Part shown: positions 606 through 40,397 of the stretch, piece after piece
Layout: the number at the start of each line of letters is the position of its first letter
Numbering within the stretch: position 1 is the first letter of the stretch
Origin: Candidatus Pacearchaeota archaeon
GTDB taxonomy: Archaea; Nanobdellota; Nanobdellia; Pacearchaeales; GW2011-AR1
DNA length: 40,397 nt
NCBI GenBank assembly: GCA_016186425.1
Contig: JACPLR010000013.1
Coordinates: 1 to 40,397 of the forward strand
Reading direction: 5' to 3'
Translations under genes and position numbers: made by a program
Notes under the pieces: model-generated
The model's database searches: none
Told to the model about the DNA's origin: nothing
Seen by the model: the letters and a program-made list of their open reading frames with translations, nothing else

Positions 606-930
606 AATTTTTATAATATATTAGCTAAATTTCATTTTCCATAAAATATCTCCATTGAATCAATCAACTTAAAAATAGACATTTGTTTGATAACAATATA
701 ATCGCCAGTTCATTTATAGTATATAAACTATAGAAGAATAGACTAAAACTTACTAGGTCTAGAGTAAAAATGAGGGAAAAATATTGCAGTATTTCAAATT
801 TTTGAATTATTACAATATAAAATTTTTCTTCTGCGAAAAATTTTGCATAATTTAATAAACGCTTAAATTAAATATGATTAGTTGCTTCAATGTTCAATGA
901 TGTTTTGCAACTTTATTTAAATTATAATAG
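606..930. other. Convergent intergenic region
   Basis: About 325 bp lie between the convergent 3' ends of gmd and the cupin gene. I see no convincing ORF or tRNA. It is AT-rich and holds copy A of the dispersed repeat (about 728-869), including a perfect 10-bp hairpin at 819-844. Beyond about 870 there is a weak inverted pair of GTTGC and GCAAC motifs around 880-910, and nothing else I can name. Confidence 0.6.
728..869 (+). repeat. Dispersed 3'-end repeat, copy A
   Basis: This is a diverged copy of the intergenic element best seen at 28460-28645. It keeps the TATTGCAGTA start of the core, the inner hairpin TTCAAA-TT-TTTGAA, the closing TTACAATA, and a second perfect hairpin at 819-844 (AAAATTTTTC, 6-nt loop, GAAAAATTTT). 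Compared with copies D and E the stem is changed on both arms (CTC/GAG to TTC/GAA), so pairing is preserved. The segment after the hairpin (TTTTGCATAATTT) is identical to that in copy B. Confidence 0.7.
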
Positions 931-6998: not shown

Positions 6999-7814
6999 CT
7001 TACGAAAATCAACTAAATCACTTCTATCTATGAAATATTTTTTTATAAACTCGTTTTCTTTTAACTTATTAAAGAATGTTGGCATATTCTGGAAAATTAT
7101 AGGATAACCTACTAATGGAGGATGGTATCTGCCGTCAGCCATTGTTTGCTCGTGCGTGTATTTAGGAAAGAGAACATTATATTTATTTTTTCTATTAAAC
7201 TTAGGGATTATTAGCTCTAATGAGCATATTTTATCTGCATAAAAATCAAATTTAAACTCGGGATTATCGGGAACCTTGAAATCATCAATAAATATAACTG
7301 CTGAATCTGCTTTTTCACTAATTATCTTTATTTCATCTTCTAATGGCCAGTTATTCAGCCAATGCGCATCTAGAAAGAAAAGAGGCATATTTCCAACCAT
7401 TTTTTTATCAAATAATATTTTAAGAAAATCTGGAGAATTATCATTAAAAACTTCAACATTTTTATATCTTGCGAGTTTCTTTAATGCTCTCTGGTAATTT
7501 TTGCTGCTTATTTCTCCAGTGTATATTGGCTTATCCGGAAACATTTCAGCTATCAGGCTGGTGCTCGCTCCCAAGAATGTTCCAGTTTCTATTATGCTTG
7601 AGGCATCTATTTCATTACCAAGAAGCTTAAATGATTTTTGAAGAAATGGATCTCCATGAAGCCTGTGTTTATACGGAAAATACTTCCATAAAAATACACC
7701 AATACCAATTTTTGTCCTTCTTAAAATATTTATCTTTTTCAAGTTAGAATACAATTCACTTTTAGTAAATTTCTTATAACTCATCAGGAAAGCAACTCTA
7801 ACCTTTTTTAACAT
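6978..7814 (-). CDS. Class I SAM-dependent methyltransferase (Methyltransf_24-like)
   Basis: In this 278-aa protein, residues ~70-200 form a Rossmann-like fold: SSIIETGTFLGASTSLIAE (motif I, ETGxxxGAS), YTGEISSKNYQRA (acidic motif II), FNDNSPDFL and LFFLDAHWLNNWPLEDEI, then VIFIDDF. The conserved D-A-H and IDDF resemble Methyltransf_24 and sugar or rhamnosyl O-methyltransferases of polysaccharide loci. A glycan O-methyl role is inferred from the neighbours. A short basic N-terminus precedes the fold. A TATA-like TTTTTAAAAAG is centred ~26 nt upstream of the ATG at 7814. The gene ends 21 bp inside the 3' end of the CgeB-like gene. Confidence 0.7.
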   Translation of the reverse strand: MLKKVRVAFLMSYKKFTKSELYSNLKKINILRRTKIGIGVFLWKYFPYKHRLHGDPFLQKSFKLLGNEIDASSIIETGTFLGASTSLIAEMFPDKPIYTGEISSKNYQRALKKLARYKNVEVFNDNSPDFLKILFDKKMVGNMPLFFLDAHWLNNWPLEDEIKIISEKADSAVIFIDDFKVPDNPEFKFDFYADKICSLELIIPKFNRKNKYNVLFPKYTHEQTMADGRYHPPLVGYPIIFQNMPTFFNKLKENEFIKKYFIDRSDLVDFRKLKLINK

Positions 7815-7960
7815 TAATCTAGATTTATTTCTGCCTTTTTAAAAATTATGGCATTAGTTTTACATAAATTGTAAATATATAAGCTATAAAAAATAAATAT
7901 CATCAAATTACTAATTAAAATTAGGCAAAGATGTGGCATGATTAATTAAAAGGAGATGTA

Positions 7961-8083
7961 ATAAGAAGAACCTTGGTTCTTTTTATTTTGAAAGTAATGC
8001 AATATAAAATTTTTCACATAGAAAAATTTTGCATAATTTGTCATCTGTTTAAACTATTTTAAGTTAACAATATTATAATGAAG
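7961..8083 (+). repeat. Dispersed 3'-end repeat, copy B
   Basis: The copy lies between two minus-strand genes. It contains a hairpin at 7966-7981 (AAGAACC, TT, GGTTCTT) followed by a T-rich run, a block AATGCAATATAAAA, a perfect 10-bp stem at 8006-8030 (AAAATTTTTC, 5-nt loop, GAAAAATTTT), and the tail GCATAATTT and TGTTTAAACT ending near AATGAAG. The 21 bases 7967-7987 recur exactly at 35676-35696 in copy G. The rest of the 7815-8086 gap shows nothing else nameable. Confidence 0.65.
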
Positions 8084-12112: not shown

Positions 12113-12127
12113 ATAACTCTTAGTATA

Positions 12128-12300
12128 TAATTTATAATATATTAGGTAACACTACTATTTCTAGCGGATAAAGTAGAGAAGATATTGCAGTAATTAAAAA
12201 TCTTGAATCATTACAATACTAAATTTCTCATTTAGGATAAATTTAAAATAATATATAGTTGTTTAAATTAGGCTTTTAAAAATTAATGAAACGGTTTTAA
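12128..12300 (+). repeat. Dispersed 3'-end repeat, copy C
   Basis: This fairly complete copy reads TTTCTAGCGGATAAAG, then GATATTGCAGTA, then CTTGAATCATTACAATAC, then the second hairpin at 12220-12245 (AAATTTCTC, loop ATTTAG, GATAAATTT; one mismatch). The tail is ATATAGTTGTTTAAATTAG followed by TAATGAAACGGTTTTAA. It lies between two plus-strand genes, just after the 3' end of the first. Confidence 0.75.
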
Positions 12301-16118: not shown

Positions 16119-16125
16119 AATAATT

Positions 16126-16300
16126 AATGTTAAAAAGTTTAACTTAAACAACTATAAGTCATTTTAAATTTCTCCTAAATGAGAAATTTAGTATGGCATA
16201 GATTTCGAAAATATTGCAATACTTTTCCCTGATTTATCAGCTAGAATTAGTTAGTTTTATCTAATCCATTGCACATTATATACAACAAATTACTAATCTT
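16126..16300 (-). repeat. Dispersed 3'-end repeat, copy D (inverted)
   Basis: This is the only copy in reverse orientation. Read on the minus strand it gives AATTCTAGCTGATAAATCAG, then GGGAAAAGTATTGCAATATT, then the hairpin at 16165-16190 (TAAATTTCTC, loop ATTTAG, GAGAAATTTA; perfect 10 bp), then TATAGTTGTTTAAGTTA. The first two blocks are nearly identical to copy F at 28.5 kb. It lies between two convergent genes. Confidence 0.8.
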
Positions 16301-21774: not shown

Positions 21775-21930
21775 TATAGAAAATAAATTAATACTTAATA
21801 TGTCTAGCATGAAAATTAGGAAAAGGAATAGTTATATTTCAAAATTATTCTTGAATCTATACTATAATAAATTTCTCATTTTAAGAGAAATTTGGCTTAA
21901 TCTATAATATGTAATAATGATTTAGATAAA
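21775..21930 (+). repeat. Dispersed 3'-end repeat, copy E
   Basis: A diverged copy in a convergent gap. It keeps TTCAAAATTATTCTTGAATC (inner stem TTCAA/TTGAA), a degenerate TATACTATAAT core and a perfect 9-bp stem at 21869-21893 (AAATTTCTC, 7-nt loop, GAGAAATTT). The tail after the hairpin is weak. Confidence 0.65.
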
Positions 21931-28343: not shown

Positions 28344-28399
28344 TTATTTATGTAATCTATATGCTAATTGAGATTAGTAACTTAAGATGTATAAATAAG

Positions 28400-28462
28400 G
28401 TAAGATTATTGTATTACTTTCAATATTTTTGAATTCATATAACACTAAATTTTTGTATATAA
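28400..28462 (+). repeat. Dispersed 3'-end repeat, partial copy J
   Basis: A short copy just before copy F. It keeps ATTGTATTAC, TTCAATATTTTTGAA (TTCAA/TTGAA stem) and the CACTAAATTT that begins the second hairpin, then breaks off. This gives two copies in tandem. Confidence 0.5.
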
Positions 28463-28645
28463 ACTATAATGGCTTAGAGAAAATTACTAGTTCTAGCTGA
28501 TAAATCAGGGAAAAGTATTGCAGTATTTTCAAAATTTTGAATCATTACAATGCTAAATTTCCCATTTAGGAGAAATTTAAAATGGTTTATAGCTGTTTAA
28601 ATTAAACTCATTAACATTAATGAAGTGATTTTAACTTCATCTTGA
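28460..28645 (+). repeat. Dispersed 3'-end repeat, copy F (reference copy)
   Basis: The most complete copy. Order: TAGTTCTAGCTGATAAATC, GGGAAAAGTATTGCAGTATT, inner palindrome TTCAAAATTTTGAA, closing ATCATTACAATGC, second stem at 28554-28579 (AAATTTCCC, 6-nt loop, GAGAAATTT, one mismatch), then TTTATAGCTGTTTAAATTA and CATTAATGAAGTGATTTTAA. The first part is shared almost base for base with the inverted copy D at 16.2 kb and with copy G at 35.6 kb. Confidence 0.85.
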
Positions 28646-28696
28646 GAAAAATTTACTATGATTTATTATTTGTTTAAATTATTTTTGGATTAATGT

Positions 28697-34662: not shown

Positions 34663-35221
34663 CTAATAGGTTCTATACACATTACCTGTAGGATTACGAT
34701 AGCAAGGAGAACTACTTAATGCAGGTTCTGTTAGTTCACAAGTAAATGTAAGAGGACTTACAAGAGGGTTAACTTTACAAAAAACAGTACGTGCATTAGA
34801 AGTATAGAAACATATTCCCTCTGTTTTAATTGCTGTAGCACGAACGCTATTATTTATTTCTATAGTGTCTTTATTAATCATATTTGCGTAACCTGATATA
34901 GTACTTGGAACTAATAGATTGTCTCTTGACTTTATTCTTGAAATCTCTAAATCTCCATTAATTTTCACACCCTTTGGAGCTCCAGAATTAATTTCTAAAT
35001 AATCTGTACCAGAATCTATAATTTTAGATCTAAAGAGCTCTAATGCAGTTGGTCCATCTTTATCTCCAATAAAACAGAAAGTTCCAGTACTGGTATCGGC
35101 CTAAACTAACTCCCCCAATGCCCATCACAATATAACCTAACAGAATTATATTCAAGATAGCCAGAATAATAAAACCCCATAGCAGCCACTTGTTATTATT
35201 TGCCATAATTATTTTTGTCAT
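34663..35221 (-). pseudogene. Frameshifted surface protein, paralogue of the right-edge gene
   Basis: The ATG at 35221 opens MTKIIMANNNKWLLWGFII, whose hydrophobic stretch (residues ~12-35) is an N-terminal membrane anchor or signal, then GIGGVSLG. At about 35100 the frame shifts: the next bases belong to another frame that continues, after a stop in that frame at ~35103, as TDTSTGTFCFIGDKD and ends at 34663. Comparison with the gene at 39905 shows that ~26 nt (encoding PSGPASYCT-like residues) are missing here, explaining the shift. The predicted product would stop after ~53 aa. The C-terminal part has several Cys (GICFYTS, VFCKV, FTCELT, SPCYRN). It is either a pseudogene or an off-state or donor cassette. 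Confidence 0.7.
34948..35099 (-). repeat. Duplicated coding block, left copy
   Basis: 148 of 152 bases match 40208-40359, with 121 consecutive identical bases (34979-35099). The four differences, all in 34966-34977, fall at third codon positions and are synonymous. The two copies are in the same orientation, 5,260 bp apart, and flank aglB. Confidence 0.9.
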
Positions 35222-35404: not shown

Positions 35405-35500
35405 TTAGGTTTTTTTGATATTTCAAGAATGTTTTTGAATCAATTCAATAAATAAATTTTCATTTTAGAAAATTTATGCCTGATTTAACATTGTTCCATA
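35405..35500 (+). repeat. Dispersed 3'-end repeat, partial copy H
   Basis: A diverged partial copy: TTCAAGAATGTTTTTGAATC (TTCAA/TTGAA stem) and a perfect 10-bp stem at 35452-35477 (ATAAATTTTC, 6-nt loop, GAAAATTTAT), changed on both arms relative to copies D and E, then GCCTGATTTAAC. It lies directly before copy G. Confidence 0.55.
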
Positions 35501-35549: not shown

Positions 35550-35765
35550 GCCTTATAATTGATTAGGTAAAACCACTAGTTCTAGCTGATAAAGCATGAA
35601 AAAATAGGATTATATTCAAAAATTATTCTTGAATCCTTACAATACTAAATTTCTTTTTAAGGAGAGTTCATAAAGAGAACCTTGGTTCTTTTTATTATTT
35701 AAAATAATCTATAATTGTTTAAATTAAGCTTTTAAACATTAATGAAGTGATTTTAATTTGTCTTT
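35550..35765 (+). repeat. Dispersed 3'-end repeat, copy G
   Basis: It starts ACCACTAGTTCTAGCTGATA (nearly identical to copy F), then TTCAAAAATTATTCTTGAAT, CCTTACAATACTAAATTTC, a degraded second stem, an AGAACC-TT-GGTTCT hairpin at 35676-35689 followed by T5, and the tail CTATAATTGTTTAAATTAAG, AATGAAGTGATTTTAA. The tail is shared with copies C and F; the AGAACC hairpin with B. Confidence 0.75.
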
Positions 35766-35794: not shown

Positions 35795-38575
35795 TTATCT
35801 CGGCTTTCTTACCGCGTCATTAGGGAAGTTTGTTTCAAGGTATGACTGATTAATTTTTACATTTGGAGGATAATTTATCTCCCATATCTTAATCGGCGCT
35901 AAAAACTGGCCTTGATAATATGCAAAATCATTTACTGGAAACCCTTGCCTTCTTAAATCAGCAGTTATAAAGCTTGGCTCATTATGAACCAGCTTGAAAT
36001 TTCCTTCTTCCCCGAATAAATATTTTCTCACAAGAAGCGAATTTACAGTTCTTTTGCTCAGGTAAATTCCAGCCCCATAATCTAATTTCTGTGGAGGATT
36101 TATAACCTCAACTAAAAAGAAACCTGCTTCTATTCCAGATTTAAAATCATGTAATTTATTGTTATAATATAAATATCTCATTGGAACCTGTGTTTGCTGC
36201 CCGTTATTCTGGACAATAATCGCTTTTGGCTGCAAAAACTCTTTTGAGTTATTATTTGATATTTCTTCAATTATTATTGCCCCAATGCCGGAACTTTCCG
36301 CTAAAAATCTTATTTCAGTGTTATTATCTTTCCATATTATATCTTCATCTAATCCACTTCCTCCAACATAGGCATACAGCGTTCCTTGAGAAGTTTCTTT
36401 TGTAGATCTCGGATCTAATGAAAACGTAGGCATATAACTAAATCTGTCATAATTTTCATCAGCTCCAATACTGCTGAATGCGGAATATTTTCCAATATCT
36501 GTAGAGTCTATTAGTAAATGTGTTGCATTATGTGTATAAAGAAAATTTAAAGCAGTGGCATCATCAGGTGTTGTCAGAACATATCTTCCCATTAAATGAT
36601 CCCAGTAGGTATATAAGTTACCTCCGTCTAATACAGTTGCTCTTCTGCCAATGCTTTGCAGCCAGTATCCGTAATCCCACCAATGGGCAAATACTGCATT
36701 TTCTTGAGTATTATCTCTAACCCAAGCCATTGCTTTTTGCCACTGCCACTGATATATTCCAGGATAAAATCCATTTGCCTGAGCCATACTTTCTTTATAA
36801 AAAGCATTAGCCGTATACATTGACAAAAGAATAATAATTATTACTAAAATCCAAAGAACATTTTTTATAACCTTATCTTTATATTGGCTAGCAATAAAAA
36901 ACATGGAAACAATAAAATAGCCCGCTAAAATGCTTGCTGGAGGGACAACAACCATTACAAATCTTACCCCGCTTCTTGCAGCAAGAATAGAGACAAAAAA
37001 TAATGTAAAAACAATTATATATCCAAAATCTATTTTTAATGGATCTTTTTTATTTTCCTTATTATATTTGTATAGTATGTAAATTGAGCTTCCAATGAAG
37101 ATAGCCATTCCGCCAAAATAAATCATTAAACTAGTTGAGCTAAGGCCGTTTAACTGGCTATTTGGAGCATATTTGCTGAATATTAATCCAATCATAGCAA
37201 AAGTATAAGTCGCTGTCAAAAGTATTTTATCTTTTTTCTCAAATTTTTTATTTATGTTATAGAAAAGAATAATTGAACCTATAAAAAATAAAGAGAAAAA
37301 TAATGGTGGAGTATTTATATTTTGACCAAATAAAGAAAAGCCGTTTGGGCCAAAACTTCCCTTCCACTCTTCTATGTAAGAAGGCTGCTTGTTTTCAGCA
37401 ACAGTCATTGAGAACCGGTCTATTGCAAGAGGGCGTATAAAAGAATCCATTAAGTTATCTAATTTGCTAGGGATAAATTTGACCCCAAGAATTGGGAGAG
37501 ATGCAAGTATAAGAATAACAAAAACAAATATAATTGATATAATCTCGCCAGAAATATGATACTTTTCATTTAATATCTTGCAGGCTTTAATATTTTTTAT
37601 TTTCGGGTAGGCAAATAAGTGAAATAAAATGAAAAACAACGAGGCAAATACAGGTATTGTAAATGTAGAAGTTAAAAAATTTATTATATGTGTTTGCGCT
37701 GAAAATTGCGGGCTAAAAATTATTGTTGAGACCAAAAAAATAAAAATCCATATTGAGTAAGCTAACAACTCTCTTTTTCTGATATTTCCTAAAGCAAATG
37801 CTACGAATACTGACAATCCCATTATGAGATAAACAAATGTCGCACCTCCCCAAGTGTAAGATAAGGCAACTGTAGCCAATCCAGCAAGTAGACTATAAAT
37901 TACTAAGGATTTATAATTTTTTGATTTAAAAGAGCATATAAAGAAATAAAAAGATAAAAAGATAAATAAAAATCCAGCAGACTCTTTTTCAGGTATTCCA
38001 GCAATTGTTCTAGGCAGTATAGAAGGTATAATTGCGAGGAATAAAGTGGAGATTAATGCAATCATGTTTGGAATATTTTTATTCTCAAAATTATCATAGA
38101 AAATTTTTCTTACAAGGAAGAAGAAAGCAATACAAGTTAGCGCAAACATGAATACTGGAAAAATTATGGCTGAATATGTTATACTAGGTTCGTTTGAAAA
38201 TATTGAAAATCCCTTATGGAACCAGGCAATTAAATAAGATAGAAATTTTTTTTCTAACCCTGTATCATGCCCGAGTGGCACATACCTCATTTTATCTATC
38301 ATGAATAATTTTCCATGCTCTACAATATACTCTGCCCACCTTAAGAATAAAAATGGATCTAAATCAGGCCCAAGTGTCCAAGTGCCTGTTGATATATCTT
38401 TCAATCTTGGAATATTTCTTGTTCTTATATAAACCGAAATGTAAACAATTGCTGCAAGAATAATATAATAAATCCATTCCTTGCCCTTGAGCAATTTAGC
38501 AATTTTATCCTTTCTTATTTCAATTACTTCATCTACTTTTTTTTCTTCACTTTCGGAATTTTCATTTTCTTCCAT
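35795..38575 (-). CDS. aglB: Oligosaccharyltransferase AglB/STT3
   Basis: This 926-aa membrane enzyme transfers the lipid-linked glycan to Asn of exported proteins. About 13 hydrophobic segments span residues ~30-590, followed by a C-terminal outer domain. The first outer loop carries the metal-binding LGPDLDPFLFLRW (DxD type, ~68-79). The acceptor-binding HWWDYGYWLQSIGRR is at ~630, the WWDYG signature of the STT3 family, followed by TVLDGGN. TAGIPEKESAGF is consistent with the second acidic EL1-type site. The N-terminal ~25 residues are highly charged (ENENSESEEKKVDE). Length fits archaeal AglB. It is preceded, 39 nt upstream, by a 49-aa zinc-ribbon gene, probably in the same unit. All key motifs are intact. 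Confidence 0.95.
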   Translation of the reverse strand: MEENENSESEEKKVDEVIEIRKDKIAKLLKGKEWIYYIILAAIVYISVYIRTRNIPRLKDISTGTWTLGPDLDPFLFLRWAEYIVEHGKLFMIDKMRYVPLGHDTGLEKKFLSYLIAWFHKGFSIFSNEPSITYSAIIFPVFMFALTCIAFFFLVRKIFYDNFENKNIPNMIALISTLFLAIIPSILPRTIAGIPEKESAGFLFIFLSFYFFICSFKSKNYKSLVIYSLLAGLATVALSYTWGGATFVYLIMGLSVFVAFALGNIRKRELLAYSIWIFIFLVSTIIFSPQFSAQTHIINFLTSTFTIPVFASLFFILFHLFAYPKIKNIKACKILNEKYHISGEIISIIFVFVILILASLPILGVKFIPSKLDNLMDSFIRPLAIDRFSMTVAENKQPSYIEEWKGSFGPNGFSLFGQNINTPPLFFSLFFIGSIILFYNINKKFEKKDKILLTATYTFAMIGLIFSKYAPNSQLNGLSSTSLMIYFGGMAIFIGSSIYILYKYNKENKKDPLKIDFGYIIVFTLFFVSILAARSGVRFVMVVVPPASILAGYFIVSMFFIASQYKDKVIKNVLWILVIIIILLSMYTANAFYKESMAQANGFYPGIYQWQWQKAMAWVRDNTQENAVFAHWWDYGYWLQSIGRRATVLDGGNLYTYWDHLMGRYVLTTPDDATALNFLYTHNATHLLIDSTDIGKYSAFSSIGADENYDRFSYMPTFSLDPRSTKETSQGTLYAYVGGSGLDEDIIWKDNNTEIRFLAESSGIGAIIIEEISNNNSKEFLQPKAIIVQNNGQQTQVPMRYLYYNNKLHDFKSGIEAGFFLVEVINPPQKLDYGAGIYLSKRTVNSLLVRKYLFGEEGNFKLVHNEPSFITADLRRQGFPVNDFAYYQGQFLAPIKIWEINYPPNVKINQSYLETNFPNDAVRKPR

Positions 38576-38614
38576 ATAAAAAGCACCTACAGTTCTTCTT
38601 ATGACATCTCCCTT

Positions 38615-38764
38615 TTAGTTGCTTTCTTCCAAAAGATCTTGAGCTGTCTGTTCTCTTAAAACAGATTCTCTCTCCCCACAATTTGGACACGATCTTGGAA
38701 GCTTATTGCTTTCAAGTTGCATGTTAAACTGATAGTTGCATCTTTTGCATCTAAAATTTGTCAT
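38615..38764 (-). CDS. Small zinc-ribbon protein (49 aa)
   Basis: A short ORF: MTNFRCKRCNYQFN, then RSCPNCGERESVLREQ, a CxxC...CxxCG zinc ribbon (Cys at 6, 9, 26, 29) with an acidic tail AQDLLEESN. The layout resembles FmdB-like or rubredoxin-like mini ribbons; no function is assigned. It ends 39 nt upstream of the aglB ATG on the same strand, so a shared transcript is likely. All four Cys are in place and the composition is coding-like. Confidence 0.65.
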   Translation of the reverse strand: MTNFRCKRCNYQFNMQLESNKLPRSCPNCGERESVLREQTAQDLLEESN

Positions 38765-38869: not shown

Positions 38870-38953
38870 ATTCTATAATATAGATAATACGATTAAATGA
38901 GTGGCTTTATAGTGTAAATTAGGTAAAGATATAGTAGTGATTCAAGAATATTT
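38870..38953 (+). repeat. Dispersed 3'-end repeat, weak copy I
   Basis: A weak, partial copy next to the 3' end of the SpoIIM-family gene: TATAGTGTAAATTAGGTAAAG, GATTCAAGAATATTTTT. It lacks the second stem. It is supported by position as much as by sequence. The rest of 38765-38869 has only a 21-nt near-repeat TTAAAAGGTTCATTATTGAT (38803-) also seen once at 31481. Confidence 0.35.
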
Positions 38954-39808
38954 TTAAAATAATTTCGGAGTAATAAATACCTCCATTAATGCAGCCAGTA
39001 AAATTATAATTATTGCGCATATAATTAACAATAAAGAATCATGAAGTATATTCCAGAATTTATCTGTTCTGAATTCTTTTTTAATAATTGCAATTCCAAT
39101 TATCCCTCCTGCAAGCGTGCCTATAAAATAAGCAGCTATTTCAGGCAGGCCGTGAATCATGTATCTCGCCAAGCTCATGGGAAGGCTTGACAGGGTTGAT
39201 TTTGAGAATATTGCCATAGCTGCCGCGATAACGCTTGCATTCCAGGCAAGTATAAAAATACCTCCTGCCCCAAAAATAATAGAAAAGATAATTGTAAAAA
39301 TCAGGACATAAAGGTTATTTGTAAAAATTCCACCAAGTAGTTCAGTACTGGTTACTAATCCTGTAGCTCTTTTGTCTTTAACTCCGTATTGCGCTGCACA
39401 TCCATCGTAATTATTTGGATTGTTTATTGCACAGTATGTTTCTATCTGGGCTTTATAATTATCAGTAGAACCAAGAATAATGTATAATGATGAAAAAGCA
39501 ACTATAAATCCAAGGAACAGCCATAAAAATGCGTGAATTGCCTTTCCATGTTCTTTTAAAAGCCGGAAAGTGCTATCTATTTCAGCATCTTTTGACTCTT
39601 CCAGTTTAATTGTGTAGTATACAAATGGCATAGAGAACATTACTGCAAAAGTTACAATCAAAATTCCGGCATATTTTGCAAGAACAACATCTCCTGAAAA
39701 AATCCAGTTTACAAGGAGTACTGATAGGGCTGCATAAAAAAATCCAACAAAAAATAGTTCCCATGGTCTTCTTTCAGACCTTCTCGGGTTTAATATCATC
39801 TCTAGCAT
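38954..39808 (-). CDS. SpoIIM/DUF95-family membrane protein
   Basis: This 284-aa protein has 6 or so hydrophobic segments and the family hallmark in its second half: FILAWNASVIAAAMAIF (WNASV), MIHGLPEIAAYFIGTLAGG (HGxPEI) and a following IIGIAIIKKE. Archaeal SpoIIM-family proteins are poorly understood membrane proteins; bacterial members act in sporulation complexes, so the name is only structural. An outer loop (residues ~115-150) contains YCAINNPNNYDGCAAQYG with two Cys that could form a disulfide. The ATG at 39808 has a TTTAAATA box 26 nt upstream; that box overlaps a strong hairpin. Confidence 0.9.
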   Translation of the reverse strand: MLEMILNPRRSERRPWELFFVGFFYAALSVLLVNWIFSGDVVLAKYAGILIVTFAVMFSMPFVYYTIKLEESKDAEIDSTFRLLKEHGKAIHAFLWLFLGFIVAFSSLYIILGSTDNYKAQIETYCAINNPNNYDGCAAQYGVKDKRATGLVTSTELLGGIFTNNLYVLIFTIIFSIIFGAGGIFILAWNASVIAAAMAIFSKSTLSSLPMSLARYMIHGLPEIAAYFIGTLAGGIIGIAIIKKEFRTDKFWNILHDSLLLIICAIIIILLAALMEVFITPKLF

Positions 39809-39904: not shown

Positions 39905-40397
39905 CTAAAAAATTCTGACACAAATGAATGCTCCATCATTATTAGGGTTACATAACCATCTATACCCATTCAGAGAGGTTAAAATAACTCCATTTGCCGT
40001 ATAATTTGCTATTTTTAATTTATTATCTTTTATTTCTGAGACAGTTAATGTACTAGCACTAATACTTGCCGCATTACGATCTGTCCCTTTAATACTACTG
40101 TAAGTCATAAGGCTTGGATAAATTGTTACAGATTCAATAGGCAGATTAATTCCAGATCTTGAACTCTTCAGGAAGCTAAAATCATTAATACTCTTCCCAG
40201 ACATATTTAAATCTCCATTAATTTTTACACCTTTAGGTGCTCCAGAATTAATTTCTAAATAATCTGTACCAGAATCTATAATTTTAGATCTAAAGAGCTC
40301 TAATGCAGTTGGTCCATCTTTATCTCCAATAAAACAGAAAGTTCCAGTACTGGTATCGGTACAATATGAAGCAGGTCCACTCGGGCTCAAACCAACA
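39905..40397 (-). CDS. Surface protein (partial, 5' end outside window)
   Basis: About 163 residues are visible, continuing off the window's right edge; a TTG at 40390 is unlikely to be the true start because the frame remains open as VGLSPSGPASYCTD. The conserved block FCFIGDKDGPTALELF, then DYLEINSGAPKGVKINGDL is encoded by the 152-nt region shared with the gene at 34663. After it the sequence diverges (NMSGKSINDF, RSGINLPIES and so on) and ends GYRWLCNPNNDGAFICVRIF. By analogy with the left copy, the missing 5' end should encode an N-terminal membrane anchor. The repeated short hydrophobic/Gly pattern suggests a beta-rich extracellular protein. It is a likely AglB target; no function is known. 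Confidence 0.65.
   Translation of the reverse strand, partial: VGLSPSGPASYCTDTSTGTFCFIGDKDGPTALELFRSKIIDSGTDYLEINSGAPKGVKINGDLNMSGKSINDFSFLKSSRSGINLPIESVTIYPSLMTYSSIKGTDRNAASISASTLTVSEIKDNKLKIANYTANGVILTSLNGYRWLCNPNNDGAFICVRIF
40208..40359 (-). repeat. Duplicated coding block, right copy
   Basis: Partner of 34948-35099 (148/152 identical; 121 consecutive). Outside it the genes diverge: toward the 3' end the two C-terminal domains differ, and toward the 5' end this copy has ~26 extra bases that the left copy lacks. Confidence 0.9.

Follow-up and report, generated by a model that had tools for sequence, protein, structure and literature searches.

The window analysed here, the whole stretch of 40,397 nucleotides from Candidatus Pacearchaeota archaeon, is contig C27 of a genome (G000) of 868,632 bases in 29 contigs. 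The original prediction had placed a recurrent element of about 150–200 bp in at least eight of its gaps, and every place that it named holds a copy found by an nhmmer model, the size being about 130–220 bp. The copies, with the parts of the focal copy at 28455–28637, are as follows.

731–873, plus strand: copy in a convergent gap (nhmmer, 80.6 bits)
7891–8060, plus strand: copy with a second small repeat inserted at 7950–7987 (nhmmer, 47.0 bits)
12123–12295, plus strand: copy with a canonical left end, its target TAACTCTTA at 12114–12122 (nhmmer, 89.3 bits; nhmmer start 12132)
16123–16270, minus strand: copy in a convergent gap (nhmmer, 89.8 bits)
21775–21904, plus strand: copy in a convergent gap (nhmmer, 62.2 bits)
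28364–28454, plus strand: older copy, 5′ part, model positions 14–104 (nhmmer, 31.6 bits)
28446–28454, plus strand: target motif TAAATTTTT (consensus TAAWTTWTW), directly 5′ of the focal left end (profile of 43 left ends)
28455–28637, plus strand: focal copy, 183 bp, with left end GTATATAAAC and right end GATTTTAACTT (deletion test and family left boundary; nhmmer start 28464)
28516–28552, plus strand: hairpin 1, TATTGC...TTCAAAATTTTGAA...TTACAATG, the inner part of module A and its partial inverted copy (read from the sequence)
28555–28578, plus strand: hairpin 2, AAATTTCCC-ATTTAG-GAGAAATTT, in the family AAATTTYTC/GARAAATTT (97.9% of cells paired, one covarying pair)
28638–28695, plus strand: older copy, 3′ part, model positions 105–165 (nhmmer, 11.3 bits alone)
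35418–35490, plus strand: partial copy, module B side (nhmmer, 26.6 bits)
35552–35750, plus strand: copy with the second small repeat inserted at 35659–35696 (nhmmer, 83.0 bits)
38896–38960, plus strand: weak copy, module A only (nhmmer, 20.5 bits)

Some of these places differ in detail from what had been predicted. The copy at 16126 is present and lies on the minus strand. Copies are also present at 28400/28460, but they are an older copy split by a younger one, and this nested insertion explains why a double position had been given. The copies at 7961 and 35550 both additionally carry a second, unrelated small repeat of about 40–48 bp (for example, AATAATAAAAAGAACCAAGGTTCTTCTTATGACATCTCCTTTTAATA). 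This repeat, which lies within copies of the element or close to them, sometimes in tandem, is also found inverted at 38566–38615 of the window, elsewhere in the genome (C3:76830, C4:47937) and in a sister species, and is reminiscent of the small mobile repeats that target the PATEs of Haloquadratum walsbyi. The window also contains a direct repeat of 160 bp with 96% identity (34940–35099 and 40200–40359), the second unit of which lies near the contig end; it may reflect a duplication of coding sequence or a break in the assembly.

The element is a genuine recurrent family. A profile built from its copies gives 150 nhmmer matches at E<0.1 in 432 kb of the genome, whereas a shuffled control yields nothing with the same profile, even when the threshold is relaxed to E<10. 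BLASTN alone detects 41 strong copies (E<1e-10), and with a sequence-only model the matches number 153 here and 133 in the genome of the sister species (G001), these copy counts being lower bounds. The wide search that had been proposed as a check therefore finds copies beyond the window and above chance, with at least 153 in this genome, and with the 150 profile matches set against zero in the shuffled control. The sequence read, as stretches, amounts to 678 kb of the G000 genome and 651 kb of the sister genome, and the DNA of the two is 86–88% identical where it can be aligned. Copy density is about one per 4 kb, and many copies are decayed or partial.

The sequence-only model has no match in five other genomes (species) of the genus, and in an order-wide search of 200 genomes the carriers are these two genomes only, the other 198 giving none under stricter filters by which weak relatives could be missed. 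No exact-pattern match to the element is present in viral contigs, and no blastn match in plasmids or phages. A weak R1 match was seen in genome G048. Record JACQNI010000063, assigned to Ca. Woesearchaeota archaeon NC_groundwater_1251, most likely comes from the same species as the G000 genome, because it is 100% identical to contig C23 over 7154 bases. At its positions 7112–7154 this record differs from C23 (near 53430) by one unit of about 42 bp, which suggests a variable tandem repeat.

The left boundary of the element is sharp: in a position profile of 43 left ends, conservation starts at −9, with background beyond. From the 5′ side, the order is the TAAWTTWTW target, the left end GTATATAACTTATA, a variable stretch, module A (AAATNAGGYAAARATATTGCATGATTTCA), hairpins 1 and 2, a tail (TTTAAATTAA) and the right end, which in the better-kept subfamilies reads TTGGTAACTYGTT or TTTTAACTCGTT; intact copies terminate in TAACTYGTT. 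Complete units measure 188–221 bp from end to end, or more when another repeat lies inside, and the focal unit measures 183 bp. The predicted order of blocks is thus upheld, as is the absence of an ORF and of obvious terminal repeats: the left GTATATAACTTATA and the right TAACTYGTT do not form inverted terminal repeats, and units of 183–221 bp contain no ORF and are too short for a transposase gene. Of the two hairpins that had been described, AAATTTYTC-n-GARAAATTT is well kept and has one covarying pair, but the other is not well kept. The main hairpins are central, some 60 bp from the ends. A minority of copies (8 and 9 cases) consist of module A followed by inverted module A; with these doublets and one good hairpin, the description as a palindromic repetitive element fits only in part. 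One subfamily (for example, C8:12327 and C4:19747) terminates with a distinct hairpin block, GGCAACAATAGTTATGCCTGAAGGGCATTAAC; this block adjoins other copies too and may be a module of its own.

The element is mobile: where the left end is intact, the whole unit has been inserted immediately 3′ of a TAAWTTWTW that was already there. When the 183-bp focal copy is deleted in silico, the older copy is rejoined with no extra base and scores 62.1 bits, compared with 31.6 and 11.3 bits for its parts taken separately; the target used by the focal copy, TAAATTTTT, is the left arm of hairpin 2 of the older copy. Among 70 copies with both flanks placed in the sister species, 41 sites are occupied and 29 are empty, 11 of the latter being clean enough to align. 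For canonical left ends, homology with the empty site reaches the target motif in several cases (for example, TAATTTAT, TAAATTCTA and TAAACCTT), and empty sites carry TAAWTTWTW or something close to it, for example TAAATTCTA at C7:14070. Some insertions in the two sister species are at orthologous places and others are in one species only. One flanking gene, compared at the protein level, has no ortholog in the sister species. Just before a copy in stretch L003, at about 1440–1490, there is a 3′ end (GAGAGTTCAATCCTCTCCGGAGGC) that is tRNA-like by appearance only.

These nested and empty sites bear out one of the readings offered in the original prediction, that of a non-autonomous mobile element that tolerates 3′ ends. 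The proposed check for mobility, a flanking target duplication, would have misled, since the element moves and yet no duplication is found. Within any one copy the left 9-mer is not the same as the right-end 9-mer, which is fixed as TAACTYGTT; the latter is therefore no target duplication. These differing 9-mers, together with the nested site that joins without extra bases, rule out duplication of the target.

With respect to genes, 177 of 184 copies are extragenic, and in 678 kb of the genome copies occupy 51 of 90 convergent gaps (57%), 83 of 319 tandem gaps (26%) and 17 of 119 divergent gaps (14%), the difference between convergent and divergent gaps having p=1e-10. The sister species shows the same trend (convergent 43%, tandem 19%, divergent 17%). 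Every copy in the window follows the 3′ end of a gene, as had been noted, but the divergent gaps occupied beyond the window mean that the association is a bias and not a confinement. Such a bias is what would be left if insertions sparing promoters were the ones to survive, and it is at odds with a transcribed 3′ element. The enrichment in convergent gaps would nevertheless be expected of a structured RNA or a 3′-UTR/terminator family, another reading that had been proposed, and the consensus structure from RNAalifold has a single 9-bp hairpin, in which one pair is compensated (C-G/U-A). Against this reading, 17 divergent gaps are occupied, and in tandem gaps the orientation of copies ignores the neighbouring gene (same/opposite, 54/45; also 40/26) and follows the contig instead. 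The covariation that had been suggested as a check amounts to about one pair: a first scan gave noise only, and for both hairpins together 3 pairs change on both sides compared with 3.1 in shuffles, a count reached by 360 of 500 shuffles. With almost no covariation, an RNA or 3′-UTR role is not supported. In the window, Rfam gives 0 matches at the gathering score, and a tRNA search found none. The focal copy folds only slightly better than its shuffles (z of −1.77 as DNA and −1.86 as RNA), which is weak evidence for any function and would agree with a substrate in the form of a folded single strand.

The orientation of copies is strongly polar along each contig. In the G000 genome, 89% of 184 copies lie on the majority strand of their contig (92% of those above 50 bits), compared with a null of 61% and a highest value of 71% in 5000 shuffles; in the sister species the fraction is 0.80 (null 0.68, maximum 0.77). 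Genes do not explain the polarity of copies, since only 62% of adjacent genes share a strand and 261 of 542 genes have the orientation of the copies. It is chiefly this polarity that refutes the RNA or 3′-UTR reading in large part, and we regard that reading as very improbable.

Copy orientation instead tracks the transcription-corrected GC3+TA3 skew (contig sign-flip p=0.001 in G000 and p=0.0002 in the sister species). On contig C12, the five nearest copies to the left of orc1/cdc6 (32.0–33.1 kb) are on the minus strand and the single copy to its right is on the plus strand, with a sixth copy, far to the left, also on the plus strand. The written strand lies on the strand that is rich in G and T and leading-sense, the one that is the lagging-strand template. 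The sign of the orientation is therefore the one expected if the written strand were inserted into that template, the fork direction being taken from skew and orc1, and the polarity suggests movement as single-stranded DNA at the replication fork. At several gaps shared by contig C8 of G000 and contig C15 of the sister genome, copies have opposite orientations, which would be expected if the segment had changed replication arm; independent insertions may also account for it.

A polarity this strong and linked to replication, with a copy every 4 kb or so, might also be produced by a polar chromosomal signal, for segregation, repair or a fork-related function, that was once spread by mobility and is kept in one orientation by selection. 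Such a signal is improbable, because neither five other species of the genus nor the remaining genomes among the 200 of the order carry the element, because many copies are decayed or partial and because 29 of 70 sites are empty in the sister species.

The explanation that we prefer, with a probability of roughly 0.62, is that the family is non-autonomous and PATE/REP-like, and that an HUH/Y1-like transposase carries it, as single-stranded DNA, into the lagging-strand template. In this model, the transposase would act in trans and the written strand would be inserted into the lagging-strand template 3′ of TAAWTTWTW; a circular single-strand intermediate, if formed, would have a junction of TAACTYGTT joined to GTATATAAC. 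The element would be selfish and serve no function that the host needs, and its 3′-end bias would be what remains after selection against insertions in promoters and genes. Three observations count against this explanation: the central position of the hairpins, the lack of a transposase tied to the element, and the agreement with skew, which holds for 13 of 17 contigs in G000 and 17 of 26 in the sister species and is weak on some contigs. The only Y1 transposase in the G000 genome is a 136-aa IS200-type protein (C19:42477), whose own GC-rich end hairpins are unrelated to the element, and each of the 7 genomes of the genus has Y1 genes, with or without the element. The resident IS200 was accordingly rejected as parent, since its ends are unrelated and the presence of Y1 does not track that of the element. 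A search of G000 for an autonomous copy (left end, ORF and right end) gave two spans, one with ORFs, none of them convincing. The driver may be an enzyme since lost, the resident one working on ends that differ from its own, or another agent altogether.

Rolling-circle elements, too, have one flank with a fixed motif and lack a duplication. Movement by another enzyme, whether IS91/Helitron-like rolling circle, a tyrosine recombinase acting on folded sites or a system with an RNA intermediate, is possible though unlikely: such mechanisms likewise give a 5′ target motif, polarity and no duplication, and no Y1 enzyme is tied to the element, but an unsystematic look found no candidate gene of these kinds, and the best-documented case of fork polarity is that of IS200/IS605 (PMC6006769).

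TnpA of IS200/IS605 inserts into the lagging-strand template and recognises subterminal hairpins, and among the Y1 enzymes surveyed, archaea show only the IS200-type subclass (PMC6006769). The element resembles IS200/IS605 in having hairpins and a target motif kept 5′ of the left end, in carrying another, fixed motif at its right end, and in lacking both duplication and inverted repeats; its orientation, as judged from skew and orc1, may also reflect a preference for the lagging-strand template. It differs in lacking an internal tnpA or tnpB, and the resident IS200 has different ends. To our knowledge, its target 9-mer and end sequences match no IS. It is small, non-coding, intergenic and high in copy number, as are classical MITEs, but unlike them it has neither terminal inverted repeats nor target duplication.

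The PATEs of H. walsbyi are archaeal and non-coding, lack inverted terminal repeats and target duplication, and have palindromes, 20–50 bp from the ends, that match IS605-type transposons of the same genomes (PMC3119063). The element is like them in lacking inverted terminal repeats, target duplication and an ORF of transposase size, and in having palindromes, a short conserved terminal oligonucleotide, diverged copies and strain-specific insertions, and in being often hit by other small mobile repeats (PMC3119063). It differs in that no parent transposon was found, its hairpins lie about 60 bp from the ends and the ends of the resident IS200 are unrelated; a replication-linked orientation was not found in the consulted passages of the PATE paper (PMC3119063). 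Bacterial REPs, which measure 20–60 bp and are linked to a RAYT gene, and REPINs number hundreds of extragenic imperfect palindromes per genome, are low in coding sequence and lineage-restricted, and in part form inverted doublets (PMC3116915). The element is likewise largely extragenic and lineage-restricted, but its inverted doublets are limited to 8 and 9 cases. The units of the element, in contrast, are about 200 bp with defined ends and a target, and no RAYT with matching palindromes was found, the sole Y1 being IS200-like. The element thus works like a PATE or a REP-type passenger; it is not filed as a member of either, because IS605-derived palindromes were not found in it and REPs need a RAYT. 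In the literature on Pacearchaeota repeats, no paper naming REP-like or PATE-like families was found, and we know of no archaeal family of either kind with a replication-linked orientation.

More tentatively, and doubtfully, the family might represent a DPANN system of single-strand transposition distinct from both IS200/IS605 and RAYT, in which a novel enzyme would join a folded strand of about 200 nt to the lagging-strand template 3′ of TAAWTTWTW, and the copies would mark fork direction. With these findings it can be put to the test whether DPANN archaea carry out transposition that is single-stranded and coupled to the fork, and by what enzyme. Should the polarity hold, the direction of the fork could be read from the copies, which would then help to locate origins and replication arms within the fragmented genomes of uncultured archaea.
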